Source: Erysipelotrichaceae bacterium (GTDB lineage Bacteria > Bacillota_I > Bacilli_A > Erysipelotrichales > Erysipelotrichaceae). Taken from it: a DNA stretch of 45,512 bases. The notes under the pieces were generated by a model. It had not been told where the DNA came from and did no database searches. It was given only the letters and a program-made list of their open reading frames with translations. The stretch lies in contig JAFULQ010000009.1 of NCBI GenBank assembly GCA_017473265.1, positions 1 to 45,512 of the forward strand, written 5' to 3'. The translations under genes and the position numbers were made by a program. Of this stretch, positions 19,570 to 37,338 are shown one piece after another (positions within the stretch are counted from its first letter, which is position 1; every line of letters begins with the position of its first letter).

Positions 19570-20334
19570 ATGAATACAGTTGATTTAGATATTTCGTTAA
19601 TTCATCCAAATCCATATCAGCCAAGATTGGAGTTTGAATTAGCGGCGTTAGAAGAGTTGTCATTATCGATTCAGGAGAATGGCTTGTTACAACCGATTGT
19701 GGTTCGTGAAGTATATAATGGTTATGAAATTATTGCTGGGGAAAGACGCTTTAGAGCGTGTCGTATGGCAGGATTAGAAACTGTTCCTTGTCGTATTATG
19801 GAAGCGAATGAAATGCAAACAGCAACAATGGCATTGGTTGAAAATATTCAGCGTGAAGATTTGAATGCGATTGAAGAGGCGAAAGCCTATATTCAAATGA
19901 TGCGTTTAAATAATTTAACACAAGAAGAATTGGCGAAAAAAGTGGGTAAGAAACAATCAACAATTGCCAATAAAATTCGTTTGATAAATTTAACAGAAGA
20001 AGTGCAAAATGAAGTAATTTCTAAAAATATTAGTGAAAGACATGCTAGAGCGTTGCTTTCACTAACAAGTGATCAACAAAGAAAAGCTTTACAAGAAATT
20101 ACGAAGAATAATTATACTGTGCAACAAACTGAATTATTTGTGCAAGAAACATTTAAACCAGAGAAGAAGCGTAAGATTAAAGTTAAAGGAAAAGGTTTTT
20201 CTAGAAATGTGCAAATTGCTAGAAATACGATTTTACAGGCGATTGGTTTAATTGAAAAAACGAATATGGAAGTATCTTATAAAGAAGATGATAAAGAAAA
20301 TGAATATGTGATCACAATTCGTATCAAAAAATAA
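19570..20334 (+). CDS. noc: Nucleoid occlusion protein Noc (ParB family)
   Basis: 254 residues. Noc is a CTP-dependent ParB-like DNA-binding protein that coats chromosomal sites and keeps the division ring from closing over the nucleoid. The N-terminal ParB/Srx CTPase motifs are visible: NPYQPR near residue 14, GERRFRACR near 60 and ENIQRED near 94. The HTH lies at [26 protein letters not shown] (about 118-143, partly quoted), and a C-terminal dimer domain follows. The assignment as Noc rather than a second Spo0J rests on position (directly after rsmG and before parA-parB, as in Bacillus) and on the absence of the N-terminal 'LGTGLGAIF' leader typical of Spo0J. The ribosome binding site is AGGAGG. 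Confidence 0.9.
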
Positions 20335-20375
20335 TAGGAAGTGTGTTAAAATTAATTGCAAAGGAAGTGAATAGA

Positions 20376-21140
20376 ATGGGTAAAATCATAGCGGTTGCCA
20401 ACCAAAAGGGTGGCGTTGGAAAAACGACTACGAGTGTTAATTTAGCTGCTGGATTAGCATATTGCCATAAAAAAGTGTTGCTTGTTGATTTTGATCCGCA
20501 AGCGAATGCTACACAAGGATTAGGTGAAAGAAAAAATATTAGATATAGTTCATATGATTTAATATTGCGTGATAAAGAGGTTGGGGATTGCGTTAAGAAG
20601 TTAACTCGTCCACCGTTGGATTTGATTCCTTCTACGATTGATTTATCTGGTGCAGATTTAGAAATGGTAGAGTATAAAGTTGGAAGAGAACGTTTGTTGA
20701 AATCTAAATTGGATAAGGTTAAAAATGATTATGATTTTATCATTCTTGATTGTCCTCCTTCTTTGGGGTTGTTGAATACAAATGCTTTAACGGCTGCGGA
20801 TTCTGTTATTATTCCGGTGCAATGTGAATATTATGCATTGGAAGGGTTAACTCAATTGTTGGCTACAATTCGTTTAGTTAAGAAGTTATTTAATAATGAT
20901 TTATTTATTGAAGGTGTATTGTTAACGATGTTTGATGCGCGTACAAAGTTGAGTTTTGAGGTGCAATCTGAAGTTCGTAAGTATTTTAAAGATAGTGTCT
21001 ATAAAGTATATATTCCTAGAAATGTTAAGTTGTCTGAATCTCCTTCTGTTGGAAAGTCTATTTTTGAGCATGATGTGTATTCAGAGGGTGCTAAGGCTTA
21101 TGCCTTATTAGCAAAAGAAGTCATTGCTAAAAATTCTTAG
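20376..21140 (+). CDS. parA: Chromosome partitioning ATPase ParA (Soj)
   Basis: 254 residues. This Walker-type ATPase binds DNA non-specifically, works with ParB to segregate origins and modulates DnaA in Bacillus. The deviant Walker A motif KGGVGKTT is at residues 10-17, with the signature lysine. Walker A' [13 protein letters not shown] is near 40 and Walker [12 protein letters not shown] near 114. The start at 20376 follows AAAGGAAG; an in-frame upstream alternative lacks a site. It sits 42 bases after noc and 11 before parB, in one operon. Confidence 0.96.
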
Positions 21141-21151
21141 GAGGTATGTAG

Positions 21152-22024
21152 ATGAAGAATGATAAAAGATTGGGTACTGGTTTAGGTGCGATTTTTGGTG
21201 ATGATTTATCGTTTGCGATTGAGTCTATTCAAAATGATGCGCAAAATCATGGTGGTGCTACGGATATTTTAGTAGATAAGATTGTAGTAAATCCATATCA
21301 GCCTAGAAAAGAATTTGATCCAAAAGCTTTGGAGGAGTTGGCGGAGTCTATTCGTGAACATGGTGTGTTTACTCCTATCTTAGTTAAAGAGATGGATTCT
21401 AATTATGTATTGATTGCTGGGGAACGTCGTTTGCGTGCTGCTAAGATGGCAAATTTAGAAAGAATTCCTGCGATTATTAAAGAGTTTACTGATGAACAAA
21501 TGATGGAGATTTCTTTGCTTGAGAATATTCAACGTGAAGATTTAACAGCTATTGAAGAGGCTTCATCTTATGAACAGTTGATTAAAAAATTAGGTTATAC
21601 ACAAGAACAATTAGCAAAACGTGTTGGTAAGTCTCGTGAACATGTTGCGAACTTATTGCGTTTGTTAAAGTTGCCTAAGGAAATTCAATTGATGGTTTCA
21701 GATAAGGTGTTATCTATGGGGCAAGTTAGACCGTTGATTACATTGGATTCTGAACAAGAAATGTTAGAGTTGGCGTATAAGATTCAAAAAGAGGGATTAT
21801 CTGTAAGACAAGTGGAAAAGCTTGTAAAACAAATGAAGAAGCCTGAGTTTAAAAAAGCGAAGTCTGAGGTGTTGGTTGATACAGGATTATTGAATGTACA
21901 ACGTATTATGCAAGATCGTTTACAAACTACGGTTAAGGTTACGGATTCTGAGATTCGCATTAAGTATGTTGATGTGAATGATTTGAATCGTATCTTGGAA
22001 ATTATAGATTGTTTGGATGATTAA
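21152..22024 (+). CDS. parB: Chromosome partitioning protein ParB (Spo0J)
   Basis: 290 residues. It begins with KRLGTGLGAIFGDD, the ParA-stimulating N-terminus (basic plus LGxGLxALF) of Spo0J proteins. The ParB/Srx CTP-binding fold follows with NPYQPRKEF near 49, AGERRLRAAKMA near 90 and [14 protein letters not shown] near 128. The HTH is YTQEQLAKRVGKSREHVANL near 149-168. The C-terminal 50 residues form the dimerisation domain. It loads at parS sites and slides along DNA; I found no clear parS (TGTTNCACGTGAAACA) in this window. The ribosome binding site is AGGAGG, and a strong terminator follows. Confidence 0.95.
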   Translation: MKNDKRLGTGLGAIFGDDLSFAIESIQNDAQNHGGATDILVDKIVVNPYQPRKEFDPKALEELAESIREHGVFTPILVKEMDSNYVLIAGERRLRAAKMANLERIPAIIKEFTDEQMMEISLLENIQREDLTAIEEASSYEQLIKKLGYTQEQLAKRVGKSREHVANLLRLLKLPKEIQLMVSDKVLSMGQVRPLITLDSEQEMLELAYKIQKEGLSVRQVEKLVKQMKKPEFKKAKSEVLVDTGLLNVQRIMQDRLQTTVKVTDSEIRIKYVDVNDLNRILEIIDCLDD

Positions 22025-22031
22025 CTTTAAG

Positions 22032-22052
22032 CCGACCCTTGGGTCGGTTTTT
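22032..22052 (+). terminator. Intrinsic terminator after parB
   Basis: CCGACCC-TT-GGGTCGG followed by TTTTTG. The next gene starts only 20 bases later, so its expression may depend partly on read-through. Confidence 0.85.
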
Positions 22053-22071
22053 GTATAGAAAGGGTGATGGT

Positions 22072-23679
22072 ATGGCAAAACTGAATATTAAGAAAATCTT
22101 GTTATGGTGTTATTTTATAATCAATTTTTGTTTTGTTTCCCTTTTTATTTATATGGGTGTTAATGAAGATGTTAATGTTTATAATCCTAGAAATATTGAA
22201 GGAGTCACTACTATTGAAAACTATAATGTAGATTATATTCATGATGATACGGCTCCGGCAAATATTCGCAAAGTATATAGTTGGACGATTGAAACATCTG
22301 AAATGACAGAAAAGTGTCTTCGTTTCTATACATCTCATCATTATGTAGATGTCTTTATTGATGGTGAATTGGTTTATAGTATTCATACAGATGAAGATAA
22401 TATGTTTGGTGATTCAATTAGTAGTGTTTGGACGAATGTGCATCTTTATCCAAAGGATGAGGGTAAAGAAATTCGAGTGATTTTAACTCCGGTGTATGAT
22501 TCGGTAATTAATAATTCAGTGGAATTTGTATATGGTACATTGTATGAAATGTTGTTACAAGAGTTGAAGGCTGAATTGATTGATATGTCGTTGGCTGTGT
22601 TGGCGATTATTGTTGGTGTTATTATTTTGGGTTATCATGTGTATGCATATTTCTCTAAGAATTTCAAAAATATTAATGCTCTATATTTGGGTATTGTGTC
22701 TATGATTCTTGGTGTTTGGAGACTTATGGATTTACGTTTTACTAGTATGTTGTTTGATAATTTCTTGGCTATGGGGTATGTAGCGAATGGATTACTGTTC
22801 TTAATCTGCCCACCAATTATTTTTCACTTTAAAACGGATTTAAAGGAAAAGGAAACAAAAGTTTTAGATTTTGTTTTATTTGTTTCTATCTCAGTTGCAG
22901 TATATGCATTTGGTTGTCAAGTATTGGGTATCGCTGATTTGCGTGCAAATTTGTATTTGACACATATTGTTATGATTTTAACGATTGTTGCGATTGTTTT
23001 AAATATCATTCAATATAAAGATTATTTTATTCGTAAAGATTTTATTCATCCAACATTGATTATGGTGATTTCTTTAACAGCAGGAACATTACTTGATTTA
23101 TTATTGTTCTATACAACAAATGATACAGTTGGTATGGTGTTTACTTTATCAGCATTCTTGTTACATGCGTTGTATCAATTCTATAACAATATTCGTGAAA
23201 TGAATTATAAAGCGAATGTGGATCCATTAACAGGATTGATGAATAAACGTAGATGGGAATCCTTGTTAAAGAGTACGAAGAGTGATAAACCAATTGGTAT
23301 TGTAGTTATTGATATTAATAACTTGAAATATATCAATGATACTTTTGGACATGAAGCTGGTGATGTTATTATTTATCGTCTTGCTCATATTATGAAGAGT
23401 ATTCTTCCACTTCACTGTCATGTTTGTCGATGGGGTGGAGATGAATTTGTAATCATGATGGAAGATTGTACACAAGAAACGATTGATAAATATGTGCACA
23501 ATATTCAAGCGGGTGTTGATACGTATAATCGGTTAAAGAAACCGCAAAGCATATCGTTTGCGACAGGTTCTGCAATAACATCAGAATTTAAAAAAATCAC
23601 ATTAAGTGAGTTGTTTAAAATTGCTGATGAACGCATGTTAGAGAATAAAAAAGAATGGAAATTACAGCAAAAGTCATAG
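22072..23679 (+). CDS. Membrane diguanylate cyclase (GGDEF) with extracellular sensor domain
   Basis: 535 residues; the start at 22072 uses AAAGGGTG, and the longer frame is rejected because it starts inside the terminator. A TM helix (residues 9-28) leads to an extracytoplasmic beta-rich domain of about 145 residues, then about seven TM helices (residues 175-370), a layout like the 7TMR-DISM receptors. The GGDEF domain starts near 390: DPLTGLMNKR, then DINNLKYINDTFGHEAGD and the complete active site RWGGDEF near residue 455. It should make c-di-GMP from two GTP. The product-inhibition I-site (RxxD five residues before GGDEF) is absent: that stretch reads LHCHVCR. It lies just downstream of the par operon and just upstream of a c-di-GMP riboswitch. 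Confidence 0.92.
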   Translation: MAKLNIKKILLWCYFIINFCFVSLFIYMGVNEDVNVYNPRNIEGVTTIENYNVDYIHDDTAPANIRKVYSWTIETSEMTEKCLRFYTSHHYVDVFIDGELVYSIHTDEDNMFGDSISSVWTNVHLYPKDEGKEIRVILTPVYDSVINNSVEFVYGTLYEMLLQELKAELIDMSLAVLAIIVGVIILGYHVYAYFSKNFKNINALYLGIVSMILGVWRLMDLRFTSMLFDNFLAMGYVANGLLFLICPPIIFHFKTDLKEKETKVLDFVLFVSISVAVYAFGCQVLGIADLRANLYLTHIVMILTIVAIVLNIIQYKDYFIRKDFIHPTLIMVISLTAGTLLDLLLFYTTNDTVGMVFTLSAFLLHALYQFYNNIREMNYKANVDPLTGLMNKRRWESLLKSTKSDKPIGIVVIDINNLKYINDTFGHEAGDVIIYRLAHIMKSILPLHCHVCRWGGDEFVIMMEDCTQETIDKYVHNIQAGVDTYNRLKKPQSISFATGSAITSEFKKITLSELFKIADERMLENKKEWKLQQKS

Positions 23680-23701
23680 TTAAAAACTATGACTTTTTTG
23701 T
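23671..23701 (+). terminator. Intrinsic terminator after the diguanylate cyclase gene
   Basis: An 11-bp perfect stem, AAGTCATAGTT/AACTATGACTT, with an AAA loop plus a T run, starting just before the stop codon. It isolates the cyclase transcript from the riboswitch unit. Confidence 0.9.
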
Positions 23702-23790
23702 TTTTTTATGCTAAAAAATTGTGAATATTTTAACTATAAAAAAAGTTCGATAAAAATGGATAATTTTACTAATTTTTTTAATTAATATTG

Positions 23791-23819
23791 TTGAAAAATA
23801 AGGATACAAGTGTTATAAA
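23791..23819 (+). promoter_or_regulatory. Promoter of the riboswitch-adhesin transcript
   Basis: TTGAAA (23791-23796), 17-base spacer, TATAAA (23814-23819). The expected start (about 23826) falls at the first bases of the aptamer. Confidence 0.7.
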
Positions 23820-23823
23820 TAAA

Positions 23824-23897
23824 GTGGGCAAACTTACCGAAAGGTAAGGACGCAAAGCTAGGTGTCTAAGCAATTTTGTATGATTGACCGGCTGCAA
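23824..23897 (+). promoter_or_regulatory. Class I cyclic di-GMP riboswitch (GEMM-I)
   Basis: The diagnostic core is present: GGGCAAAC, a stem ACTTACC-GAAA-GGTAAG capped by a GNRA tetraloop, then GACGCAAAGC, and downstream GACCGGCTGC closing the second helix. AGC..GGT (23855-23862) can pair with ACC.GCT (23887-23893). GEMM-I aptamers bind c-di-GMP between the two helices. The 3' strand of that helix (ACCGGC) is also the 5' arm of the terminator that follows, so the aptamer and terminator are mutually exclusive. This predicts an ON switch: c-di-GMP binding prevents termination and allows the giant surface protein gene to be transcribed. The ON direction is inferred from the overlap, not measured. 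Confidence 0.93.
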
Positions 23898-23925
23898 CAT
23901 TCTTTTTGTTGTGGCCGGTTTTTAT
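23887..23925 (+). terminator. Expression-platform terminator of the c-di-GMP riboswitch
   Basis: A 13-pair stem from ACCGGCTGCAACA to TGTTGTGGCCGGT (two G-T wobbles) with a 7-base loop is followed by TTTTTATATTTT. Its 5' arm overlaps the aptamer. Confidence 0.9.
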
Positions 23926-24063
23926 ATTTTCTGCCACAAAAAAAGGTAAAAAATATAAAAAAAATCAACACTTTTCATTAAAAAAAACGGTAAATTGAAA
24001 AGTGGTTTTTTGGCGATGTAAGAGATTTACATGTATTGGAATAATATGTGAGGAGGATATATT
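23926..24063 (+). promoter_or_regulatory. Leader between riboswitch terminator and giant adhesin start, with a second terminator-like hairpin
   Basis: About 140 untranslated bases. CACTTTTCA (23969-23977) pairs with TGAAAAGTG (23996-24004) over an A-rich loop and is followed by GTTTTTTGG, which looks like a second intrinsic terminator. A further small hairpin, ATGTAA-GAGAT-TTACAT (about 24015-24032), precedes the ribosome binding site GAGGAGG, which is 5-6 bases before the ATG. No second aptamer was recognised. Confidence 0.5.
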
Positions 24064-27000
24064 ATGAAAAAGGGTTTGATGAAGAAGTTATTAAAAGCAA
24101 CGTTAGCATTTTTGCTGGCTTTTAGCGTTGTAGAGACTAGTGCTTTTACAAGAGTAAGTGCTTTAGAAAAAGAACACTATACAAAGGTATCGGATCCAAA
24201 TACTATGGATACATGGAAACAATACTTTGAAAGTGTTGTTAACGTAAATAATCAACTTGTTACATCAACTGGGCAAGCTGGATATATTTGGAGTGATAAG
24301 ACAGTATTATCTTCAAAAGATGATTTAACTTCTTCTGACTCTGTTTTAAATAAGCTTACTTGGGATGAAGAAAACTTTTTAGTATCTTTATCTGCTTTAT
24401 CAGCAAATAGTGAAGTTGTGGGTTATTCTACAATTCCTACTGATACTATGATTGTTTTAGACTTATCTAATAGTATGACCGAAGATGCGATGTATGCAAT
24501 GGTAGAAGCTGTTAATAAGGCGATTGATTCATTACTTACATTAAATAAATACAATCGTGTAGGAGTTGCTGTATATGATACGGATGCAAGTGTTTTATTA
24601 CCGCTTGATTCATATACAACAACAAAAGTGAATAATAATGGTACTCCTGGTGATACAAGTGATGATTATCTTGTATATTTAGAGCTTGATGATTTTGAAA
24701 AAGATGGAACTAAAAATACAGGAGATCTTCGAGTAGCCCATGGAAATTCGTCACATCAAGTTACTGTTACTGTTGATTATTCAGGTGTTGATTGGAATGA
24801 ATTAAATGATGCAATAAGGAATGCTAACAGTTATAATCGGGATGATAGACTTGAAGAAAGATTGAGTCCATATATTCCTAGTGCTGTAAGCATTGACTGG
24901 TCAGATGTATATAATAACAAACCAGAATACAATATTAATAATATGACTGCGGAGAAATGGAAAACGTACATTGAGACAAATTATAGTTCTTTTACAGTAG
25001 ATACATATAGTGTGGTAAAGAATAGTAAAGATGAGTATGTAATTTCTAGTGTTGAAGTTGGTGGCGGAACTTACATGCAATATGGTATGTGGAATGCTTG
25101 GAATGAATTTAAAGCTGTAACGGATACAACAATTACGGATGGAATTTTAGCTGGAACTGTTCGTATGCCTGTTATGGTATTGATGAGTGATGGTGCTCCT
25201 ACATACAACACTACTTATTATAATGCAGTTACTAGCACATATAATTCTGGTAATGGATCAAACGTTAATAATCGCAATGGATTCCTTACTCAGTTAACTG
25301 GGGCGTGGATTAAGAAAAATATGGCCAATCATTATGGTCGAGATGGATTATTCTATACATTGGGACTTGATGTTGCTGATAATGATGTCGCGACCAGTGT
25401 ATTAAATCCTTCAGCTTCAAATGATACGATTGATGGTTATTGGGAAACATTCTTGAAAGCAAAAGACGGCGATAATGTAATTATTCGAGAAGGCCAAAAT
25501 AATAGCGTTACAGTTATAAAAGACGCGACTATTACTTCACAAGACTTTGTTAATCAATATTACCCTGCAAAAAATGCAACAGGTTTAATCAGTGCGTTCG
25601 CAAGTATTGTAAATCAAATTATTTTACAATCTAAATATTATCCAACAAAGTTAGAACAAGCAGAAGTTAACATGAGTGGATATATGAATTTTGTTGATGA
25701 ACTTGGTGAATATATGGAAGTTAAATCAATTAAAGGTATCGCTAGTGGAGAAGGAGATGCTCGCAAATTGTATACAGGTGATGAATTTGCGCAGGCTTTC
25801 ATTGCAGATGATATTTTTGGTGATATTTCTTCTGGTAATTTAAATAATTTAAATGAAGACGGTCAATTAATGATTAAAGTTATTATGAAGCGTTTGGGTG
25901 TAAATGAAGAGCATGCAAAGGTTGCATTATCTAATGCAATTACAACTGGTCAAATTAGTTATACGAGCGCTACAGAATATAGCAATTATATTGGTTGGTA
26001 TGCTGATGCTGATGGAGATTTTATTGGTGTATGGGATGGCAATGAAAATGCAACACGTCCAGAAAAAGCTGTGTCTTATGTTAAAGATTATGGTTTCTTT
26101 GGCGATGTTGGTAGTGCTGAGACATTTGACTTATCTAATATGAGTTATATTGTTGCTAGAGTAGCTACTAATATTGAAACTAAGCAGCAAACAGTAAATT
26201 GGGCTGTTCCTGCTTCATTAGTACCTGTTATAACGTATTCTGTTGCTTTCGAAGGTATGTCATATGATGAAGCTCAAAATCCAACTATGGAGATTAATCA
26301 TAAATTGCCAATTTGTTTTACATATGAAGTTGGTTTGCGCTCAGATATTAATGAATATAACATATCTGCTTTAGTGGATGATGCTTTCTTAAATGAAGAT
26401 GGTACATACTCATTCTATACAAATATGTTTAATCGTAATGCGGATAGTTCTAGTAATCCAAACACTCATAATACAACGACCGTAGACTTCAAACCATCAG
26501 AAGAAAATGCTCGTTATTACTATATTGCTGATACATTAGTATTAGATGATAATCACGAAATGGTTTCTAAAGATGATTTCTCTAGTAGCGGAACATATTA
26601 TCGCAAAGTGGTAGCGTTTAATAAAAATGCAAATGATGGTACTGTCCAAATGGTTAACTACTATTCGCCATTATCTAAAGAAGTATTACCAAAAGTAAAA
26701 TTCAACGATGATGGCTATGCATATGTTCCTAAGGGAACAGCGTTCAGTAACATTACAGACAATGAAACTGAAAAATCATCAAATAATACAGGAACATTAG
26801 ATTATTTTAATCGCCCTGTAATGACAATTATTAACAATGAACAACAAGCAGTGAATTATTTGGGTAACAACGGTAAAATTGTAGTAACTCCACAACAAGG
26901 TTTACTATTATATAAAGAGATTGAAGGATTAACTGCTGGTAGTGAAACATTCCAATTTACTATTGAAATTCAAAAAGCAGATAAGACACCATTTAGTGGT

Positions 27001-30000
27001 ACATTAAGATTGAAGGATACTAATAAAGGGGATGTTCAGGAAGTAAATATAACAAATGGAAAATTAGAATTATCATTAAAAAATGGTAATGGTGTTTATA
27101 TTGTTGATTTACCAACTGATGCAACATATTCTATTACAGAAGCCAATCATCCTGATTATATGCTAAAAACAGTATCAGTGAATGATGTTGTAACTGGTAA
27201 TATTGCTCAAGGCACAATTAAGAATAAGAAGATTGATAATGTAGTGTTTACAAACGCAGTTAAAGTTCCTACATTATTAGTATCAAAAGAAGTTGAATAT
27301 CCATTTGAACTTGTAAATAGTCAAGTGGATAACCATGAATTTACTGTTTTAGTAGATTTAGGTGCGAATTATAGTAATAAAGAAGTAACTGTATGGGGTT
27401 CTGATGAAACTTATACTGCTAATGCAAACGGTGTAGTTACATTAACATTAAAAGATGGCGAATCTGTAATGTTAAATGTTGCTAAAAATGATACTTATAC
27501 AATTACAGAAACAAATTTACCAGCAGGATATACGATGAATGCTGATAAGAGTGTTAATTTACAAGGTACAATTATTACAAATGATAATATTGCGAAGGTT
27601 GTTAATACATATGCACCTACAAGTGTAAAACCTACAAATGTTACAATTGATGGTACAAAAGGATTAACTGGACGTGAATGGTTAGATACAGATTCATTTA
27701 CATTTATTTTGCAATATTTGAATGGAAATAATTGGGAAACGATGGCAACTGTAGATGCGGATAAAGATGTAGCTACTTTAGCTGATAAGACAGTCACATT
27801 TACAAATACAATTAGAAATGTTGAATATACGCAAGTTGGAGAATATCGTTATAGAGTAATCGAGGTAAATGGTGGTTCATTGATTCAAGGTATTACTTAT
27901 GATTCAACTGTTCATACATTTACAATTAAGGTTACAGATAATGACTTAGATGGTCAATTAGAAGTTTCGTCAGTAACTAGTGAAACAACGACTGTAACAA
28001 CTAATGAAAACACGTTTGCTGTGAGTATGAGTTTTGCTAATACATATGCTGCTTCAGGTAGTGCAACAGCAACTATTGAAATTCAAAAAGAGATTACAAA
28101 CTATGCAGATACAGACCTTTCTTTAGAAGGATATCAGTTTGTATTAAAAGATTTGTTGGGTAATGTTGTTGCAGAATCAACAGTAACAACAAATGAAGGA
28201 ACTGCTAAAATCGTTTTAGAATTAGATATTAGTATGTTAGGTAGTCACCAATACAAATTAAGTGAAATTGTGCCAACTACTACTGTAGATGGTATGGTAT
28301 ATGACTCTACTGTTTATGACATTAATGTTAATGTTGTAGATAAGTTAGATGGTACAATTGGCGCTATATTATCAGTTGACGGGGTAACAACAAATGGAAA
28401 TGAAGCTAATGTTTCATTCAATAATGTTTATGATGAAGAAACACAAGTATTTACAGGTAATAAAGTATTAAGTGGTCGTGATTGGAAAGATGGCGATACA
28501 TTTAGCTTTGAATTATATGAAACTGCTTCTGATTTTGATGAAACAGCGGTTGGCGCTTCAAAATTAGGTACAGAAGTAGTTACTTTTGCGGATGCTAGTA
28601 AAGCATTTACATTTGATGAAATTACATACAAGAATGTGGGAACACATTATTATGTAATTAAAGAAGTTGCTGGTACAATTGGTGGTATTACTTATGATAC
28701 ACAAGAATATCGTGCAACAGTTACATTAACTAGAGATGATAATAATCAATTAGTTAAGACAGTAACATTTGTTGATGGTGAGGTAGAGTTCACAAATACA
28801 TATGAAGCGGCAGATACAACAGCTGAAGCTATCGTAGGAACAAAGACAATGTCTGGTAGAAATATGAGTGCTGGTGAATTCACATTCAATTTATACCAAA
28901 CAGGATCAAATTATAGTATTGAAGGATTAACTCCAGTACAAACAAAACAAAATGTAGCTGGTCAAAATGGAGAAGAAACTAACTTCGCATTTGATACAGT
29001 TAAGTATGATGAAGCTGGAACATATTATTATGTAGTAACTGAAACAAAGGGAACAGCTGGTGGAGTAACATACGATGCTCGTACATATAGAGTAAATGTA
29101 GTTGTAGTTGATAACTTAGATGGAACAATGACAGCTACAGTGAATTATGTAGATGGTGCGGTAGAGTTTACAAATACATATAAAGCATCAGAAACATCTA
29201 TTGAATTAGGTGGTACTAAGACAATGGATGGCAGAGATATGACTGCTGGTGAATTTACATTCAATTTATTCGCAGTTGATGCAGAAGGTAATGTGGCTAC
29301 TACTCCATTGGATACAGTAACGAATGTTGCGGCATTAAATGGTGTAGAAACAAGCTTCAAGTTTGAAGAACAAACATATACACAAGCTGGTACTTACGTT
29401 TATGCAATTACAGAAACAAAGGGAACAGCTGGTGGCGTTACTTATGATGAAACTACATATCTTGTAACAGTTACTGTTACAGATAACAATAAAGGATCAT
29501 TAGTTGCAGAAGTTACATCGATTACTGATGCACAAAAAGTAACAAAGAATAGTGTTGCTTTCTTAAATACATATAAAACTAGTGATACCGAACTAGTGAT
29601 TAAGGGTACTAAGAGATTAAATGGTAGAGATATGAATGCAAATGAATTTACATTCAATCTTTATACAACTAATGAATCTTATGGTATTGATGGATTAAAA
29701 CCTATTCAAACTGTAACAAATGTTGCTGGGGCGAATGGTGAAGAAACTACATTTGCATTTGCTAGTGTTCCATTTAAAGAAGTTGGTGAATACTATTATG
29801 TAGTAACTGAAGAAAAAGGTACTTTGGGTGGTATCACATATGATCAAACAAAGTATGATATTAAAGTTGTTGTTAAGGATAATTTAAATGGTACATTAAC
29901 GGCTAGTGTTGTTAGTGTTAATGGAAAAGAAGCTGGTAAAGTAGCGTTTGTAAATACATATAAAGCTAATGTTAATGCAAGTGTTGTATTAGATGCTCAA

Positions 30001-33000
30001 AAGGATTTACAAGGTCGTGATTGGAAGGATTCTGATCAATTTACATTTGAATTATATACAGCAGATGAAAATTATAACGTAGTAGAAAATGCTGAGGCGT
30101 TTAAAACTTTAACTGTTACTGATGAAACAGTTAAGGCATTTGAAGAAATTACATATGATACTGTTGGTACATATTATTATGTAATGAAAGAAACATACGG
30201 TGGACAAAGAATTAATGGTATTTCTTACTCTACTGAAGTTTATAAGATTGAAGTTACTGTTACTGATAACTATAATGGTACATTAAGTGCTGCTACAGTA
30301 ATTAAAAACAGTAATGATGAAGTAGTTTCTCAAGAAGTGTTTGTTAATACATATACAACTGATTCTGTAACTACAGAAAGAATTAAGGGTACTAAGACTT
30401 TAGTTGGTAGAGATATGAGTGCTAATGAATTTACATTCAATCTATACGAAACTGATGAAACATTTGCTATTCCTTCTAATGCTGTTGCTTATGACACAGT
30501 GAAAAATGAAGCAAGTGCAAATGGTGTTGCGGATGCATTTACATTTAAGTCAATGACATTCGATAAAGTTGGTACATATTATTACGCAGTGGTTGAAGAA
30601 CAAACTGAAATTGCTGGTGTAACAATGGATACGACTAAGTTCATTGTAACAATTAAAGTTGCTGATGATACAAATGGTAAATTATATGTGAAAGAACTAT
30701 TGGTAAATGGTAGTGCTGAAAACAAGATTGCATTTGTGAATAAGTATTCTATTGACCCAACTCCATTTGAATTTGGTGGTTATAAAACATTAAGAGGTCG
30801 TAAACTTGCAGCTGAAGAATTTACATTTAACTTATATGAAAGTGATGTAACTTTCACAAACCGTAATTTTGTTACTTCTGTTAATAATACAGAAGATGGT
30901 TCATTCATGTTTACAGGTTTAGAAAAAGCGGTTGGAACTTACTATTATGTAGTAGAAGAAGCTGCTGGAACAGTTGGTGGTGTTACTTATGATGCAACAC
31001 ATTATCATGTAACTGTTGAAGTTGTAGATAATGGTGTTGGTGGTACAACAGCAAATGTTAAAGAAATTCTAAAGGTTACTAAAAATGAAGAAGGTACAGT
31101 TATTGCTGGTTCTAATGTGATTTCATTTGTAAATAAATATGTTCCAGTTGATAACGATGGTATTGTTATTGGCGGTAATAAGACATTGACAGGACGTCAT
31201 ACAATTGATGGTGAATTTACTTTCGAATTATATGAAGCAGATGAAAACTATACAATTGCAGAAGGTGCTACACCAATTCGTACAGTCAATGAAGCTAATA
31301 CATTTGCATTTGAAGAAGTATATTTTAACAAAGTTGGTAATTACTACTTTGTAGTTAAAGAATTAGATAAGAATGCTGGTGGTATGGCTTATGATACAGC
31401 ATCATTCAATGTACATGTTGCAGTGACTGATGATGGTAAAGGTGAATTACATGCGGCTATCGTATCAATTAATGGTAATGAAAATGGTACGATTACATTT
31501 AACAATACATACACAATTGAAGATAAAGAAGAACTTGTGATTTCTGGTGTTAAGGAATTTACAGGTCGTGAATGGACAGATGAAGATGTATTTACATTTG
31601 AATTGTATGAAACAAATGATGAATATGAAGTAAGTGGTGCTACATTATTAGAAACTAAGACTGCTACTAAGGGTAATGTAAACTTCAGCTTTAGTAAGTT
31701 AGTTTATAAGAGTGAAGAAACTCATTACTATGTAGTAAGAGAAGTTGCTGGTGCTACTGATAATGGTATTACTTATGATACAAAACAATATCAAATTAAA
31801 GTTGTTGTTACAGATAATCATGATGGTACATTAACAATGAACCATAAAACGGTTGTTGCTGGTACTGAAGTAACGAATATTAAGTTTGTGAATACATATG
31901 AAGTATTTGATAACTCTGCAGCTTATGTTGATATTGTAGCAACGAAGGCTTTAACTGGTCGTCCGTTGAAGAATGCAGAATTTACATTCGAATTATATGA
32001 AGCTGTATATGATGAAACTACTGGTAAATATACTAAGGGTACATTAGTTGAAACAGTGAAGAATGCAAATACTGAAGTGAAGTTCACAAGAATTAAGTAT
32101 ACTGAAGAAGGTACACATCACTATATTGTTAAAGAACAAGCTGGTGATTCTACAATTGGTATTACTTATGATTCTAATGAATATCCTGTAACTGTAGTTG
32201 TTTATGATGATGGAAATGGACGTTTAGCTGTTAATAAGACAGTTAATGGTGAAGTTGGATCTATCACAATTAACAATACATATACAGTTACTCCAGATGA
32301 ATTTAAGTTATCTGGTACAAAGACATTGACTGGTCGTGATATGGAAGCTAATGAGTTCGTGTTTGATTTATATCAAGCGACTGATGCTACATTTGCAAAT
32401 CGTACACTAGTTCAATCTGTTAAGAATAATGCTGCAGGTGAATTTGAATTTGTAGGATTATCTGAACAACCTGGTACTTACTATTATGTAATTGAAGAAC
32501 AACAAGGTTCTAAGGGTGGGGTAACATATGATGCATCTCACTACCATGTTGTAGTAACAATCGTTGATAATGGTAACGGTACTACTGAAGTTTCTTCTAC
32601 TACTTATACAAAAGTGGTTGAAGAAGATGGTAAGACATCTACACAAGAAGTAAATAGCGTAGTCTTTAATAATACTTATGTACCTACTGATTCTACTGGA
32701 TTAGTATTGGGTGGTAATAAGGCATTAGCTGGACGCCATACAATTGATGGTGAATTTACATTTGAATTGTATAAGACTGGTGCTGATTTTGAACTTGTTG
32801 AAGGTGTTGCTCCAATTCAAACAGTAAATGAAGATGATAAGTTTGAATTTAAGCCATTAACATATCCTACAACTGGTACTCATTATTATGTAATTAAAGA
32901 GTTAGATAAGAATGCTGGTGGTATGACATACGATACAGCAACTTATAGAATTACTGTTGAAGTTACTGATGACTTGAATGGTGAATTAGTTGCTGAAGTT

Positions 33001-36000
33001 GTATCTATGACAGATGCTGATGGTAAAGCTGTTGAAAAAGTAACATTTAATAACTCTTATGAAATTGAAAAACCAATTACTGTTATTGTTAATGGTAATA
33101 AAGTATTAACTGGTCGTGAATGGTTAGATTCTGATGAATTTACATTCGAGTTATATGAAGCAAATTCTAATTATGAAGTTAGTGAAGGTGCTACACCATT
33201 AGATACACAAACAGCTACTAAGGGTAATACAGCATTTGTATTTGATGAATTCACATATGATGCAGAAGAAACTCATTACTATGTAGTTAAAGAAGTAGTT
33301 GGTACTTTAGGTGGCGTTACATATGATACAACAGTATTTAATGTAAAAGTTGTGGTTACAGATAATCATGATGGTACATTATCTGTTGAAAAGACATACT
33401 ATGTTGGTAACTCAAAAGTTAACAATATTGAGTTTGTTAATACATATGAAGTGTTAGATTCTTCTAAGGCTTATGCGACAATTAGAGGTACTAAGTCTTT
33501 AACTGGTCGTGTATTAGCTAACGGTGAATTTGAATTTGAATTATATGGAGCTATTTATGATGAGGAAACTGAAGAATATGTTTCTACAGAGTTGCTTGAA
33601 ACAGTTAAGAATACTGCTACAGCATTTACATTCTCTGCTATGGAATATAGTGAAGTTGGAACTCATTATTATGTAGTAAAAGAAAAAGCTGGTGAATTAG
33701 GCGGAGTTACATATGATGAAACTGTATATGTAATTGAAGTAACAATCACTGATGGTTATGATGGAAAATTATATTCTTCAGTAGATATTATCAATAGTGA
33801 AGCAACTGTAGTTGCATTCAATAATACATATACTATTTATCCGGATACATTCTCATTTGAAGCAGTTAAGACATTAACTGGTCGTGAAATGACTGAAGGT
33901 GAATTTAGTTTCGAATTATATGAAACAAATAGTTCTTATAAAGATGCTAAATTAATTCAAACAATTAAGAATGACAAAGATGGTAAAGTTGAATTTGCTG
34001 GATTGTCTAAATATCCTGGAACTTACTACTATGTAATTAAAGAAGTAGCTGGTTCTAAGGGTGGTGTATCTTATGATTCATCATACTATCAAGTGAAGAT
34101 TGTGATTGTAGATGAAGGTAATGGTACAACGAAGATTGAAAATACAACAATTACAAAAGTTTCTATTACTGAAGATGGTGCGGTTGGTGAACCTGCTGAT
34201 AAAGTATTGTTTGCTAATACGTACACACCAACAGATAGTGATGGTATCGTAATTGAAGGTGCTAAGAATCTTACTGGTCGTCATATGATCAATGGTGAAT
34301 TTACATTTGAATTATATGATGCTGATGGCAACTTAAAACAAACAGTTGTTAATAAAGACGGTAAGTTCGCATTTAAAGAATTGTTCTTTGATGAAGTAGG
34401 TACATATACTTATGTAGTTAAGGAAAAAGATTTAGGTGCTGGTGGTATGAGTTATGATTCTAAGGAAATTGAAGTTGTAATTAAAGTTACTGATGATTTA
34501 AATGGTGAATTAGATGCAACAATCGTTTCTATTAATGGATCTGCTGATACAGCAATTGAATTCAATAATACGTATGAAATTACTAAACCTAATTCAACAA
34601 TTATTGAAGGATATAAGACATTCACTGGTCGTGAATGGACTGAAGATGATGTATTTACATTTGAATTATATGAAGCTAATGCTGATTATGAAGTTGCTGA
34701 AGGTGCTAAACCATTAGATACACAAAAAGCTACTAAAGATAATGTAACATTTGCATTTGATGAAATTACATATGATGCAGAAGATACTCATTATTATGTA
34801 GTTAAAGAAGTTGTTGGTGATACAACTGTTGGTATTACATATGATACTAGTGTATATAACGTAAAAGTTGTAGTTACTGATAATCATGATGGTACATTAA
34901 GTGTTGCTCAAACAGTGACTAAGAATAATACAGTTGTTGAAGATATTGAGTTTGTAAATACATATGAAGTGTATGAAGGTGCGTATGCTCAAGCTACAAT
35001 TTCTGGTATTAAGACATTGACAACTCGTCCAATTAAGGATGCTGAGTTTACATTTGATTTATATCAAACAGGTAGTGATTTCGCTATTATTGAAGGATCT
35101 ACTCCAATTCAAACTGTAAATGATGGTGTAACATTCACATTTGAAACTATTAAATATGATAAGATTGGTACTTATTATTATGTAGTTAAAGAAATGAATG
35201 CTGGTGAAACACTAAATGGTGTAACTTATGATGAAAGAGAACATAAAGTTCAAGTTGATGTTACTGATGGTGGTAAAGGATACTTAGTATCTAAAGTTAC
35301 AGTTGTTGGTAAAGAAGATAATACTTTAGTTGTAGATAACAAGTATACAATTACTCCTACTGAGTTCTCTCTAGATGTTAATAAAGTATTAACTGGTAGA
35401 GATATGAACGATGGAGAATTTACTTTCGAATTATATGAAAGTGATGCTACATTTGCTAATACAACATTTGTAATGTCTACTACAAATGATGCTGAAGGTA
35501 ATGCTACATTTGAAGGATTGGCTAAACAACCTGGTACATATTACTATGTAATCAGTGAAAAAGCTGGTTCTAAGGGTGGTGTAACATACGATGCTGCTAA
35601 GTATCAAGTAACAGTAACTGTTGCGGATAATGAACTTGGTGGAACAGTTGTTACGAATACAAGTTATGTAAAAGTAACTGCTGATGGTGCAGAAAAAGTA
35701 GAAAACGTTGTATTCAATAATAAATATGAACCTAAAGATACTGATGGAATCGTTCTTGGTGGCATTAAGTTATTAACAGGACGTCAATTAGTAAATGGTG
35801 AATTCGTATTTGAATTATTCGATAAAGATGGTGAATTATTACTTCAAACAACAGTTAATAAAGATGGTAGATTTGAATTTACACCATTAACATTTGAAGA
35901 AACTGGAACATATGTTTATACAATCAAGGAAAGAAATAACGGAATTGGTGGTATTACATATGACCCAACAGTATTCAAAGTAACTATTGAAGTAGAAGAT

Positions 36001-37338
36001 GACTTGAATGGTGAATTGGTTGCTAAGGTATCTGAAATTAAAGCATCTGGATCTAAAGTTGATGCAATGATTTTCGAAAATACATATAAAGCAGAACCAA
36101 TTAAGAATGTAATCAATGGTATTAAAGTACTAACTGGTCGTGATTGGTTAGAAACTGATGAATTCACATTTGAATTATATGAAACTGAAAGTGATTTCGA
36201 AATTAGTGGTGAAGCTATTGATACAGCTATTGCTACTAAGGAACATCAAGAATTCACATTTGATGAAATTACATATGATAAACAAGGTGAATACTATTAT
36301 GTAGTTAAAGAAGTAGCTGGTACTATTGGTGGTGTTACATATGATGTAAGACTATACAATGTAAAAGTTACAGTTACTGACATGTTAGATGGAACATTCA
36401 CATTGAAACAAGAAGTTGTTGTTGATGATGAAGTTGCTGATATGATTGAGTTTGTTAACCCATATAGTGCTAAGGGTACTGGATTAACATTATTTGCTCA
36501 AAAAGAAATTGAAGGTAGAGACTTAGTTGAAAAAGAATTCGTATTTGACTTATTTGAAGCAAGTGCTGAATTTGTAATCAATGGTGCTGCTATTCAATCT
36601 AAAGAAAATGCTATTGATGGTAAGGTAGTATTTGATGAATTAGCATTCGAAGAAGTTGGTACATACTACTACGTAATTGCTGAAAAAGCCGGCAATGCTG
36701 GTGGTGTTACTTATGATGATACTAAGTACTTTGTAACAATTTCTGTTACTGATGATTTAGCTGGTAACTTGGTTGCTGAAATCGCAAGTATTACAACTAA
36801 CAAGTCTAAAGAAGCTGTTGAAGATGTAATGTTCAATAATACATATGCTCCTGCTAAAACGGTAGATGGTATTGTATTAACTGCTAAGAAAGTCTTCAAT
36901 GGTAGAGAATTAGTTGAAGGTCAATTTACATTCAACTTATTCGAAACAGATAAGTCATTTAATGTAGATGCTGTTGCATTACAAACTGCTGTAAATGACG
37001 CATTAGGAAATGTTACATTTGCCGAAATGAACTACGACAAAGTTGGAAGTTACTACTATGTAATTACTGAAGAAATTGGTAATGAAGAAAACATTATCTA
37101 TGATACAGCTAGATACATGGTTGAAGTTCAAGTAACTGATGACAAACTTGGTCAATTACATGCTGAAGTAGTAAGCATCACTAAAGAAGGTGAAAATGCT
37201 GAAGAAGTTGTATTTGAAAATACATATTTCGTAAATACAGCGGATACTACAACTGCTAATGGTTGGTTAGCAAGTATGTTTGTAAGTGTGATCGCATTGA
37301 TCGTGGCTGTTGGTAAGAAAAGAAAATTATCAAAATAG
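24064..37338 (+). CDS. Giant surface adhesin: vWA domain plus about 25 isopeptide (Spy0128/FctA-type) domains
   Basis: 4,424 residues. A signal peptide (about residues 1-36, basic start then LLKATLAFLLAFSVVETSAF) leads to a von Willebrand A domain at about 125-515 with the MIDAS start DLSNSM (near 133) and VMVLMSDGAPTY (near 373). Two CnaB-like domains span about 955-1185 (each ends near a TITE motif). About 25 domains of about 128 residues follow, matching the streptococcal pilin isopeptide linker family: K-x-L-T-G-R, E-F-x-F-x-L-Y, G-T-Y-Y-Y-V-V-K-E, GGVTYD, V-x-V-T-D, F-x-N-T-Y. The Lys, Glu and Asn that form the internal isopeptide bond are kept in all repeats I read. The end is a membrane helix (WLASMFVSVIALIVAVG) and basic tail KKRKLSK with no LPXTG before it. 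It is inferred to be a rigid, protease-resistant fibre with a ligand-binding tip at the N-terminus, expressed under c-di-GMP control. Confidence 0.93.
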   Translation: MKKGLMKKLLKATLAFLLAFSVVETSAFTRVSALEKEHYTKVSDPNTMDTWKQYFESVVNVNNQLVTSTGQAGYIWSDKTVLSSKDDLTSSDSVLNKLTWDEENFLVSLSALSANSEVVGYSTIPTDTMIVLDLSNSMTEDAMYAMVEAVNKAIDSLLTLNKYNRVGVAVYDTDASVLLPLDSYTTTKVNNNGTPGDTSDDYLVYLELDDFEKDGTKNTGDLRVAHGNSSHQVTVTVDYSGVDWNELNDAIRNANSYNRDDRLEERLSPYIPSAVSIDWSDVYNNKPEYNINNMTAEKWKTYIETNYSSFTVDTYSVVKNSKDEYVISSVEVGGGTYMQYGMWNAWNEFKAVTDTTITDGILAGTVRMPVMVLMSDGAPTYNTTYYNAVTSTYNSGNGSNVNNRNGFLTQLTGAWIKKNMANHYGRDGLFYTLGLDVADNDVATSVLNPSASNDTIDGYWETFLKAKDGDNVIIREGQNNSVTVIKDATITSQDFVNQYYPAKNATGLISAFASIVNQIILQSKYYPTKLEQAEVNMSGYMNFVDELGEYMEVKSIKGIASGEGDARKLYTGDEFAQAFIADDIFGDISSGNLNNLNEDGQLMIKVIMKRLGVNEEHAKVALSNAITTGQISYTSATEYSNYIGWYADADGDFIGVWDGNENATRPEKAVSYVKDYGFFGDVGSAETFDLSNMSYIVARVATNIETKQQTVNWAVPASLVPVITYSVAFEGMSYDEAQNPTMEINHKLPICFTYEVGLRSDINEYNISALVDDAFLNEDGTYSFYTNMFNRNADSSSNPNTHNTTTVDFKPSEENARYYYIADTLVLDDNHEMVSKDDFSSSGTYYRKVVAFNKNANDGTVQMVNYYSPLSKEVLPKVKFNDDGYAYVPKGTAFSNITDNETEKSSNNTGTLDYFNRPVMTIINNEQQAVNYLGNNGKIVVTPQQGLLLYKEIEGLTAGSETFQFTIEIQKADKTPFSGTLRLKDTNKGDVQEVNITNGKLELSLKNGNGVYIVDLPTDATYSITEANHPDYMLKTVSVNDVVTGNIAQGTIKNKKIDNVVFTNAVKVPTLLVSKEVEYPFELVNSQVDNHEFTVLVDLGANYSNKEVTVWGSDETYTANANGVVTLTLKDGESVMLNVAKNDTYTITETNLPAGYTMNADKSVNLQGTIITNDNIAKVVNTYAPTSVKPTNVTIDGTKGLTGREWLDTDSFTFILQYLNGNNWETMATVDADKDVATLADKTVTFTNTIRNVEYTQVGEYRYRVIEVNGGSLIQGITYDSTVHTFTIKVTDNDLDGQLEVSSVTSETTTVTTNENTFAVSMSFANTYAASGSATATIEIQKEITNYADTDLSLEGYQFVLKDLLGNVVAESTVTTNEGTAKIVLELDISMLGSHQYKLSEIVPTTTVDGMVYDSTVYDINVNVVDKLDGTIGAILSVDGVTTNGNEANVSFNNVYDEETQVFTGNKVLSGRDWKDGDTFSFELYETASDFDETAVGASKLGTEVVTFADASKAFTFDEITYKNVGTHYYVIKEVAGTIGGITYDTQEYRATVTLTRDDNNQLVKTVTFVDGEVEFTNTYEAADTTAEAIVGTKTMSGRNMSAGEFTFNLYQTGSNYSIEGLTPVQTKQNVAGQNGEETNFAFDTVKYDEAGTYYYVVTETKGTAGGVTYDARTYRVNVVVVDNLDGTMTATVNYVDGAVEFTNTYKASETSIELGGTKTMDGRDMTAGEFTFNLFAVDAEGNVATTPLDTVTNVAALNGVETSFKFEEQTYTQAGTYVYAITETKGTAGGVTYDETTYLVTVTVTDNNKGSLVAEVTSITDAQKVTKNSVAFLNTYKTSDTELVIKGTKRLNGRDMNANEFTFNLYTTNESYGIDGLKPIQTVTNVAGANGEETTFAFASVPFKEVGEYYYVVTEEKGTLGGITYDQTKYDIKVVVKDNLNGTLTASVVSVNGKEAGKVAFVNTYKANVNASVVLDAQKDLQGRDWKDSDQFTFELYTADENYNVVENAEAFKTLTVTDETVKAFEEITYDTVGTYYYVMKETYGGQRINGISYSTEVYKIEVTVTDNYNGTLSAATVIKNSNDEVVSQEVFVNTYTTDSVTTERIKGTKTLVGRDMSANEFTFNLYETDETFAIPSNAVAYDTVKNEASANGVADAFTFKSMTFDKVGTYYYAVVEEQTEIAGVTMDTTKFIVTIKVADDTNGKLYVKELLVNGSAENKIAFVNKYSIDPTPFEFGGYKTLRGRKLAAEEFTFNLYESDVTFTNRNFVTSVNNTEDGSFMFTGLEKAVGTYYYVVEEAAGTVGGVTYDATHYHVTVEVVDNGVGGTTANVKEILKVTKNEEGTVIAGSNVISFVNKYVPVDNDGIVIGGNKTLTGRHTIDGEFTFELYEADENYTIAEGATPIRTVNEANTFAFEEVYFNKVGNYYFVVKELDKNAGGMAYDTASFNVHVAVTDDGKGELHAAIVSINGNENGTITFNNTYTIEDKEELVISGVKEFTGREWTDEDVFTFELYETNDEYEVSGATLLETKTATKGNVNFSFSKLVYKSEETHYYVVREVAGATDNGITYDTKQYQIKVVVTDNHDGTLTMNHKTVVAGTEVTNIKFVNTYEVFDNSAAYVDIVATKALTGRPLKNAEFTFELYEAVYDETTGKYTKGTLVETVKNANTEVKFTRIKYTEEGTHHYIVKEQAGDSTIGITYDSNEYPVTVVVYDDGNGRLAVNKTVNGEVGSITINNTYTVTPDEFKLSGTKTLTGRDMEANEFVFDLYQATDATFANRTLVQSVKNNAAGEFEFVGLSEQPGTYYYVIEEQQGSKGGVTYDASHYHVVVTIVDNGNGTTEVSSTTYTKVVEEDGKTSTQEVNSVVFNNTYVPTDSTGLVLGGNKALAGRHTIDGEFTFELYKTGADFELVEGVAPIQTVNEDDKFEFKPLTYPTTGTHYYVIKELDKNAGGMTYDTATYRITVEVTDDLNGELVAEVVSMTDADGKAVEKVTFNNSYEIEKPITVIVNGNKVLTGREWLDSDEFTFELYEANSNYEVSEGATPLDTQTATKGNTAFVFDEFTYDAEETHYYVVKEVVGTLGGVTYDTTVFNVKVVVTDNHDGTLSVEKTYYVGNSKVNNIEFVNTYEVLDSSKAYATIRGTKSLTGRVLANGEFEFELYGAIYDEETEEYVSTELLETVKNTATAFTFSAMEYSEVGTHYYVVKEKAGELGGVTYDETVYVIEVTITDGYDGKLYSSVDIINSEATVVAFNNTYTIYPDTFSFEAVKTLTGREMTEGEFSFELYETNSSYKDAKLIQTIKNDKDGKVEFAGLSKYPGTYYYVIKEVAGSKGGVSYDSSYYQVKIVIVDEGNGTTKIENTTITKVSITEDGAVGEPADKVLFANTYTPTDSDGIVIEGAKNLTGRHMINGEFTFELYDADGNLKQTVVNKDGKFAFKELFFDEVGTYTYVVKEKDLGAGGMSYDSKEIEVVIKVTDDLNGELDATIVSINGSADTAIEFNNTYEITKPNSTIIEGYKTFTGREWTEDDVFTFELYEANADYEVAEGAKPLDTQKATKDNVTFAFDEITYDAEDTHYYVVKEVVGDTTVGITYDTSVYNVKVVVTDNHDGTLSVAQTVTKNNTVVEDIEFVNTYEVYEGAYAQATISGIKTLTTRPIKDAEFTFDLYQTGSDFAIIEGSTPIQTVNDGVTFTFETIKYDKIGTYYYVVKEMNAGETLNGVTYDEREHKVQVDVTDGGKGYLVSKVTVVGKEDNTLVVDNKYTITPTEFSLDVNKVLTGRDMNDGEFTFELYESDATFANTTFVMSTTNDAEGNATFEGLAKQPGTYYYVISEKAGSKGGVTYDAAKYQVTVTVADNELGGTVVTNTSYVKVTADGAEKVENVVFNNKYEPKDTDGIVLGGIKLLTGRQLVNGEFVFELFDKDGELLLQTTVNKDGRFEFTPLTFEETGTYVYTIKERNNGIGGITYDPTVFKVTIEVEDDLNGELVAKVSEIKASGSKVDAMIFENTYKAEPIKNVINGIKVLTGRDWLETDEFTFELYETESDFEISGEAIDTAIATKEHQEFTFDEITYDKQGEYYYVVKEVAGTIGGVTYDVRLYNVKVTVTDMLDGTFTLKQEVVVDDEVADMIEFVNPYSAKGTGLTLFAQKEIEGRDLVEKEFVFDLFEASAEFVINGAAIQSKENAIDGKVVFDELAFEEVGTYYYVIAEKAGNAGGVTYDDTKYFVTISVTDDLAGNLVAEIASITTNKSKEAVEDVMFNNTYAPAKTVDGIVLTAKKVFNGRELVEGQFTFNLFETDKSFNVDAVALQTAVNDALGNVTFAEMNYDKVGSYYYVITEEIGNEENIIYDTARYMVEVQVTDDKLGQLHAEVVSITKEGENAEEVVFENTYFVNTADTTTANGWLASMFVSVIALIVAVGKKRKLSK
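27640..37227 (+). repeat. Array of about 25 Spy0128-type domain repeats within the giant adhesin
   Basis: Twenty-four repeats keep a G-R or related pair after the bonding lysine (examples: GTKTLTGRDM, GNKVLTGREW, GTKTMSGRNM). One, the second, lacks it (IQKEITNYADTDLSLEGYQF) but keeps Lys, Glu and Asn. The mean period is about 128 residues (384 bases). Copies differ at protein and DNA level, so this is an old, diversified array rather than a recent expansion. Confidence 0.9.
30751..36870 (+). repeat. Four-domain super-repeat (A-B-C-D), about 1.5 kb per unit, four units
   Basis: Equivalent points (the first hydrophobic residue of the A domain) fall at 30766, 32302, 33850, 35365 and 36871, giving units of 1536, 1548, 1515 and 1506 bases. 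A domains start after '(I/V)(D/T/Y)P' and carry PGTYYYVI plus a 'Y-x-K-V' late strand. B domains start DGIV(I/L)GG and have GRH/GRQ and G(I/A)GG(M/I). C domains have GREW(T/L)-(E/D)-(D/E). D domains have R(P/V)-(L/I)-K/A. The D domain of the fourth unit is divergent. Confidence 0.8.

Follow-up and report, generated by a model that had tools for sequence, protein, structure and literature searches.

Higher-order super-repeats of domains are well known in animal giant proteins, but have seldom been described in bacterial stalks. The textbook example is titin, whose super-repeat units contain 7 or 11 Ig/Fn3 domains. On the bacterial side, the Spy0128/FctA major pilin and the T-antigens of Streptococcus are few-domain subunits that are polymerised by sortase. 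Duplication of several domains at a time is the usual mode of repeat expansion, and most fibronectin-3 arrays have grown by four domains per step (Bjorklund et al. 2006, PMC1553488). A search of the open-licence literature for higher-order repeats in bacterial adhesins, whose outcome is weak evidence at that scope, returned no paper describing such a case.

The window analysed here is the whole 45,512-nucleotide stretch of contig JAFULQ010000009.1 (assembly GCA_017473265.1) from an uncultured gut bacterium of the family Erysipelotrichaceae. An ORF on its forward strand (24064-37338) encodes, in a single reading frame, a giant cell-surface protein of 4424 amino acids, in which Pfam and NCBIfam profile searches detect a VWA tip, two DUF7601 domains and 25 FctA/Spy0128 isopeptide domains, numbered D01 to D25 (Table 1). 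The FctA family PF12892 matches 25 stretches of the ORF with 1421.6 bits, against a curated cut-off of 22.1; the NCBIfam family TIGR03786 likewise matches 25 stretches, and a profile search of the genome found no FctA domains other than these. All 25 domains carry the Lys, Glu and Asn triad that is tabulated for FctA (PMC12617251), at alignment columns 16, 87 and 151, and a locking Lys-Asn isopeptide bond is predicted inside each of them.

Table 1. Features of the adhesin gene, in positions of the window
Feature	Position	Strand	Basis or content
Probable signal peptide (MKKGLMKKLLKATLAFLLAFSVVETSAF...)	24064..24165	+	Inferred by reading the sequence
Start of VWA-type domain, MIDAS motif DLSNS intact	24445..24627	+	Pfam; amino acids 128-188, DLSNS at 133-137; putative adhesive tip
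Two DUF7601 domains, between tip and stalk	26905..27612	+	Pfam; amino acids 948-1183
FctA domains D01-D08, without regular super-repeat	27613..30747	+	D03 and D07 C-like (GRDW)
Block 1	30748..32283	+	D09 (A, 30748-31140), D10 (B, 31141-31512), D11 (C, 31513-31899), D12 (D, 31900-32283)
Block 2	32284..33831	+	D13 (A, 32284-32679), D14 (B, 32680-33060), D15 (C, 33061-33447), D16 (D, 33448-33831)
Block 3	33832..35346	+	D17 (A, 33832-34224), D18 (B, 34225-34575), D19 (C, 34576-34965), D20 (D, 34966-35346)
Block 4, incomplete	35347..36465	+	D21 (A, 35347-35727), D22 (B, 35728-36087), D23 (C, 36088-36465)
C-terminal cap pair	36466..37227	+	D24 (36466-36846), D25 (36847-37227); own clade
Membrane tail VNTADTTTANGW, hydrophobic stretch and KKRKLSK, without LPXTG	37228..37338	+	

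Fibrillar adhesins combine an adhesive domain with a long repeated stalk. The ORF, in which a VWA domain that retains its MIDAS motif and a 25-domain stalk are both read from sequence, is a putative fibrillar adhesin in which the VWA-type tip would be held off the cell by the 25-domain rod; its adhesive function and its anchoring to the surface are presumed. Upstream of the gene lie rsmG, a noc-like parB, parA, parB and, directly upstream (22039-23679), a gene for a GGDEF protein of the diguanylate cyclase family, which is 92% identical in another species of the genus (G003). A regulatory link between this protein and the adhesin gene is possible, as a speculation.

The C-terminal tail, which occurs once in the genome, has a motif [ND]T[AS]D before its hydrophobic stretch that resembles a sorting signal, and that reads VNTAD in the window and VNTAD, VDTAD and PNTSD in three relatives (L111, L109 and L132, respectively). 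VNTAD stands in place of LPXTG in the window protein, which thus does not qualify as a sortase-anchored LPXTG protein. The sortase family PF04203 had no match in four genomes of the genus (G000-G003), whereas controls and more distant relatives did match, and the exosortase family PF09721 had none in the genome of the window. A collagen profile search of the genome gave one match, which falls below the curated cut-off, has a stop inside and carries no meaning here.

The sequence-only reading had proposed that domains 9 to 24 recur with a period of four. We cut D01-D25 at a conserved NTY motif, aligned them and averaged pairwise amino acid identity by lag, and the result confirms that the four-domain super-repeat of the stalk is real. 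Similarity peaks at lags 4 and 8, and weakly at 12. Among all 25 domains, mean identity is 44.3% at lag 4 and 42.5% at lag 8, with every other lag at 34-38%; for D08-D24 the corresponding values are 48.9% and 47.3%, versus 33-41% at the others. None of 100,000 permutations of domain order reached the observed lag-4 mean (p<=1e-5; permuted mean 36.57, s.d. 1.19). Within D09-D24, same-phase pairs average 48.3% identity and out-of-phase pairs 36.7%, with a maximum of 45%, and the closest relative lies at a multiple of four domains for 14 of the 16, the exceptions being D20 and D24. The equivalent points previously placed every four domains were borne out, and lie 18-24 bases inside the re-derived domain starts (30748, 32284, 33832, 35347 and 36847), from which periods of 1536, 1548, 1515 and 1500 bp follow.

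Each position in the block had been credited with a signature of its own, and most of these hold with single exceptions. All four A domains have a P before the bonding strand and three have PGTYYYVI (VGTYYYVV in D09). DGIV and GRH each occur in three of the four B domains (TGLV in D14, GRQ in D22), and GREW in three of the four C domains (GRDW in D23). The RP or RV of class D is found as GRPL, GRVL and TRPI in D12, D16 and D20, but D24 has GRDL and is not of D type. Other class-specific residues include F10, G72 and T119 in A, P4, G9 and E118 in B, and W23 and D27 in C (alignment columns). Loop lengths also differ by class, and net charge differs mildly, with C the most negative.

Neighbouring domains within D09-D24 never exceed 43% identity, whereas domains four apart reach 69-70%. 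This is what might be seen if selection for divergence between neighbours, acting against misfolding, had favoured the copying of a block of unlike domains over that of single domains, and large multidomain proteins are known to tend towards divergence of neighbours (PMC4660218, PMC8201768). However, adjacent pairs (36.8% identity) show no excess of divergence over non-adjacent out-of-phase pairs (36.6%), and active divergence of neighbours was rejected on this comparison. Moreover, two homologous stalks (L015 and L018) contain domain pairs that are 93-95% identical, and their lag profile is highest at lag 1. We regard such selection as a doubtful explanation, although it may have operated together with block duplication.

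In a tree of the 25 domains alone, classes A (support 100/98) and B (95/92) are firm, and C is a single clade with weak support (66/71). D12 and D16 group at 99/93 and are joined by D20 at 83/84, whereas D24 joins D25. The expected grouping of A with A, B with B and so on was therefore recovered for A, B, C and three of the D domains, and failed for D24. Adjacent domains being closest, the pattern named in advance as contradicting the super-repeat, was not observed. We then extended the tree with two more species of the same genus (G002, represented by L002 and L109, and G003, represented by L110 and L111) and with a second genus (G094, L003/L132). Here A (99/97), B (97/83), C (99/92) and D (90/90) each form a single clade across four species and two genera. 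The tree requires 4 class changes for 5 groups, the minimum possible, where shuffled labels require 34.4 on average. Class D is the least supported, and its position in the last block is taken by a cap domain: D24 and D25 make up a conserved pair of caps, and both have one-to-one orthologs in G003, G002 and G094. The proposed period-four array is accordingly shortened to D09-D23 and, judged from its sequence, the stalk array is (ABCD)x3-ABC-cap1-cap2, that is, three full blocks, a further A-B-C and two caps.

Since every one of the four classes is a single clade across two genera, the block predates the split of those genera. We consider it very probable that the membrane-proximal two thirds of the stalk grew by tandem duplication of an A-B-C-D block before at least two genera separated, with in-register recombination afterwards. 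Growth by four-domain blocks, as originally suggested, is thus supported by the class clades in four species, but does not extend to D24 or to D01-D08, where changes involved single domains or were irregular.

Relatives preserve the register of the array and appear to differ in the number of blocks. The ten domains d01-d10 of L111 in G003 match D16-D25 in order, with 68-92% identity, above the identity to their own block paralogs. In G002, the nine domains of L109 read A B C D A B C cap cap, in the register of the window, and an A B pair at the end of another contig implies at least three blocks in a gene that is broken by the contig end. G094 has A B C (D) A B C cap1 cap2, or two blocks. Its D-position FctA domain (L003/L132, ORF amino acids 2355-2480) is interrupted by a Glu/Ala-rich stretch and near-identical repeats containing SASEP; the two halves, compared separately, match D12 best, weakly, and the domain was left out of the tree. 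The number of blocks per gene is therefore two in G094, at least three in G002 and four in the window counting the capped one, where counts for G002 and G003 are bounded by contig breaks. In class B, the domains of block 3 group into one set and those of block 4 into another, both with one domain from every species of the genus, so that these blocks are positionally orthologous.

Mis-assembly could in principle have created or multiplied the repeat: the genome is a draft in 29 contigs, and in G002 and G003 contig ends interrupt this gene. Yet DNA divergence between the blocks is 22-43% in classes A, B and C, too much for an assembler to collapse or multiply them, the same order occurs in independent genomes of three other species, and the ORF remains open over 13 kb. 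An assembly artefact is thus extremely improbable.

The duplications are old. At fourfold-degenerate sites with the same amino acid, agreement is 0.608 within classes and 0.609 between classes, indicating that synonymous sites are saturated. Recent duplication or recent gene conversion was rejected on the pooled sites, with a residual excess in some C pairs: D15/D19, D15/D23 and D19/D23 stand above the saturation level, at 0.72-0.89 agreement, which leaves room for later exchange within class C. Quartet likelihoods favour a different block order for each of A (14|23), B (12|34) and C (13|24), so that these classes do not agree on one order of duplication. Forcing one shared order costs ~5.9 log units; a single shared block history was rejected because the classes disagree, and the history may include exchange between blocks.

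These observations bear on another possibility, in which same-phase domains are kept alike by gene conversion between every fourth domain of a pre-existing array, and not by block duplication. The differing block-order signals of classes B and C are consistent with conversion, as is the identity of D15 and D19 (69%), which exceeds that of other C pairs. However, the pooled fourfold sites bear no mark of recent homogenisation, and, for G003 and most positions of G002, orthologs in matching positions of different species are closer to each other than are the paralogs of one species. Conversion by itself would also leave the number of blocks unchanged. We therefore think it unlikely that gene conversion took the place of block duplication.

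The distal part of the stalk behaves differently. D01-D08 show no lag-4 signal (33.1% versus 33.8%). GR[DE]W is found in D01, D03 and D07 as well as in class C, and D03 and D07 lie four apart, in step with class C, yet form separate clades related to it. The corresponding spacing in G002 is three, between the C-like domains d03 and d06, and the N-terminal phase is therefore not conserved. G003 has three D04-like domains in its distal stalk. Also in G003, several near-identical Cna_B-like repeats that are absent from the window gene follow D03 (L063, amino acids 1600-1796; L110, amino acids 1-175). The idea that GR[DE]W domains mark the phase generally and avoid adjacency was rejected among all homologs (3 adjacent pairs versus 6.2 expected, p=0.075, not significant).

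Comparison with G003 at the DNA level also separates the two ends of the gene. Positions 19689-24678 of the window are 89% identical to L063 over 5 kb comprising upstream genes and the adhesin's first 600 bases, and the noc, parA and parB proteins are 98% identical. Identity drops to ~66% in the VWA-containing tip region, counting matching stretches only, and is 84.5% from D16-D25 to the stop codon. These values suggest that the tip half is fast-changing or replaced, whereas the membrane-proximal half is nearer the pace of the genome. L063 and L111 are presumably the two ends of one G003 gene; their contigs are unjoined, and downstream of L111 lies a different gene from the one in the window.

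We surveyed 40 homologous proteins or fragments, each with at least eight FctA domains, using uncorrected p values, which makes single cases near 0.02-0.05 weak. Only the window protein and two orthologs of the same genus have a lag-4 peak beyond chance (p=0.001, 0.011 and 0.013). Other gut Firmicutes show a peak at lag 3 (L022, L036, L041 and L048, which are one near-orthologous group, as well as L049, L127 and, marginally, L124) or at lag 2 (L126), and most of the 40 proteins have no period. The size of the block is therefore lineage-specific. The lag-1 peak of L015 and L018 is the pattern expected of recent single-domain growth. An initial scan of viral contigs found no relatives.

An AlphaFold2 model of block 3 (D17-D20) has a mean pLDDT of 90.9 and a pTM of 0.53, and thus consists of four confident domains whose relative orientation carries no confidence. 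The best Foldseek match in the PDB is 8f70 (E=9.4e-18), and the leading matches comprise T18.1 and other streptococcal T-antigen pilins, including 3b2m; single domains match FctB (3klq/8k6t) with TMt of 0.73-0.80. The predicted domain fold is a beta-sandwich like that of streptococcal pilins.

The survey and the model both bear on whether four domains make up a module with a structural or functional role, such as a fixed turn of the rod, lateral packing or a ligand site, in which selection besides ancestry keeps the phase. The A-B-C-D order and the cap pair have been kept across two genera despite saturated synonymous sites, and the classes have residues, loop lengths and mild net charge differences of their own, all of which would suit such a module. 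But class-specific residues are expected from descent alone as well, the N-terminal part of the rod lacks a fixed phase, close relatives in the domain family have a period of three, two or none, and the pTM defines no inter-domain geometry. A role of this kind is improbable in our assessment, and the structural turn or alternating surface chemistry that the sequence-only reading had cautiously offered found no support in the homologs or in the model. A functional module, with for example a fixed twist or a lateral-association site every four domains, is highly unlikely; if it did exist, stalk length would change only in whole modules, as a bacterial counterpart of the titin super-repeat ruler.

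Because relatives have a period of three, two or none, we favour ancestry over a structural need for four, and infer unequal recombination that is locked in register by ancestry. In such a mechanism of block duplication, the four domain types would have diverged to below ~45% identity before the first block was copied, and that first copy would have been a rare event involving four already different domains at once. Afterwards, the only usable homology for unequal recombination would lie ~1.5 kb, or one block, away, and later gains and losses would stay in register as whole-block steps, keeping the period without any structural rule. Ordinary purifying selection could hold each domain type in place. 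The distal tip and the first third of the stalk change faster and irregularly. The product would be a metal-binding VWA-fold tip carried on a stiff rod of bonded domains. The stalk also shows that the tip end can diversify while the membrane-proximal blocks keep their register.

Several known systems share features with this stalk. Periscope Proteins (PMC8201768, PMC9704523) also project a tip on a single-chain stalk of tandem domains whose length differs between relatives, but their repeats are at least 80% identical, whereas the stalk domains reach at most ~70% at the amino acid level and 78% in DNA, which places them outside the Periscope identity range. The Spy0128/FctA pilin and Streptococcus T-antigens (3b2m, 8f70) have the same domain fold and Lys-Glu-Asn triad, but the stalk joins 25 domains in a single chain, and a search of four genomes of the genus gave no sortase match. 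Titin A-band super-repeats (PMC7427331, PMC10665226) resemble the stalk in that homologous Ig-like domains follow a fixed higher-order arrangement that is old, diverged and composed of position-specific types. However, titin super-repeats match the spacing of the thick filament, and no such template is known for the stalk, whose unit is four domains of one fold as opposed to an Ig/Fn3 mix. The domain repeats studied in PMC1553488 likewise show autocorrelation that peaks several domains away and at multiples of that lag, but are mainly eukaryotic, whereas the present repeat is in a bacterial isopeptide-domain stalk whose block register can be followed across two genera. Relatives with periods of three and two provide a natural comparison set for asking whether super-repeats arise from ancestry or function. 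Domain periodicity of a higher order, a subject examined mainly in giant proteins of eukaryotes, is documented here for a bacterial isopeptide stalk whose domain order is conserved across genera.
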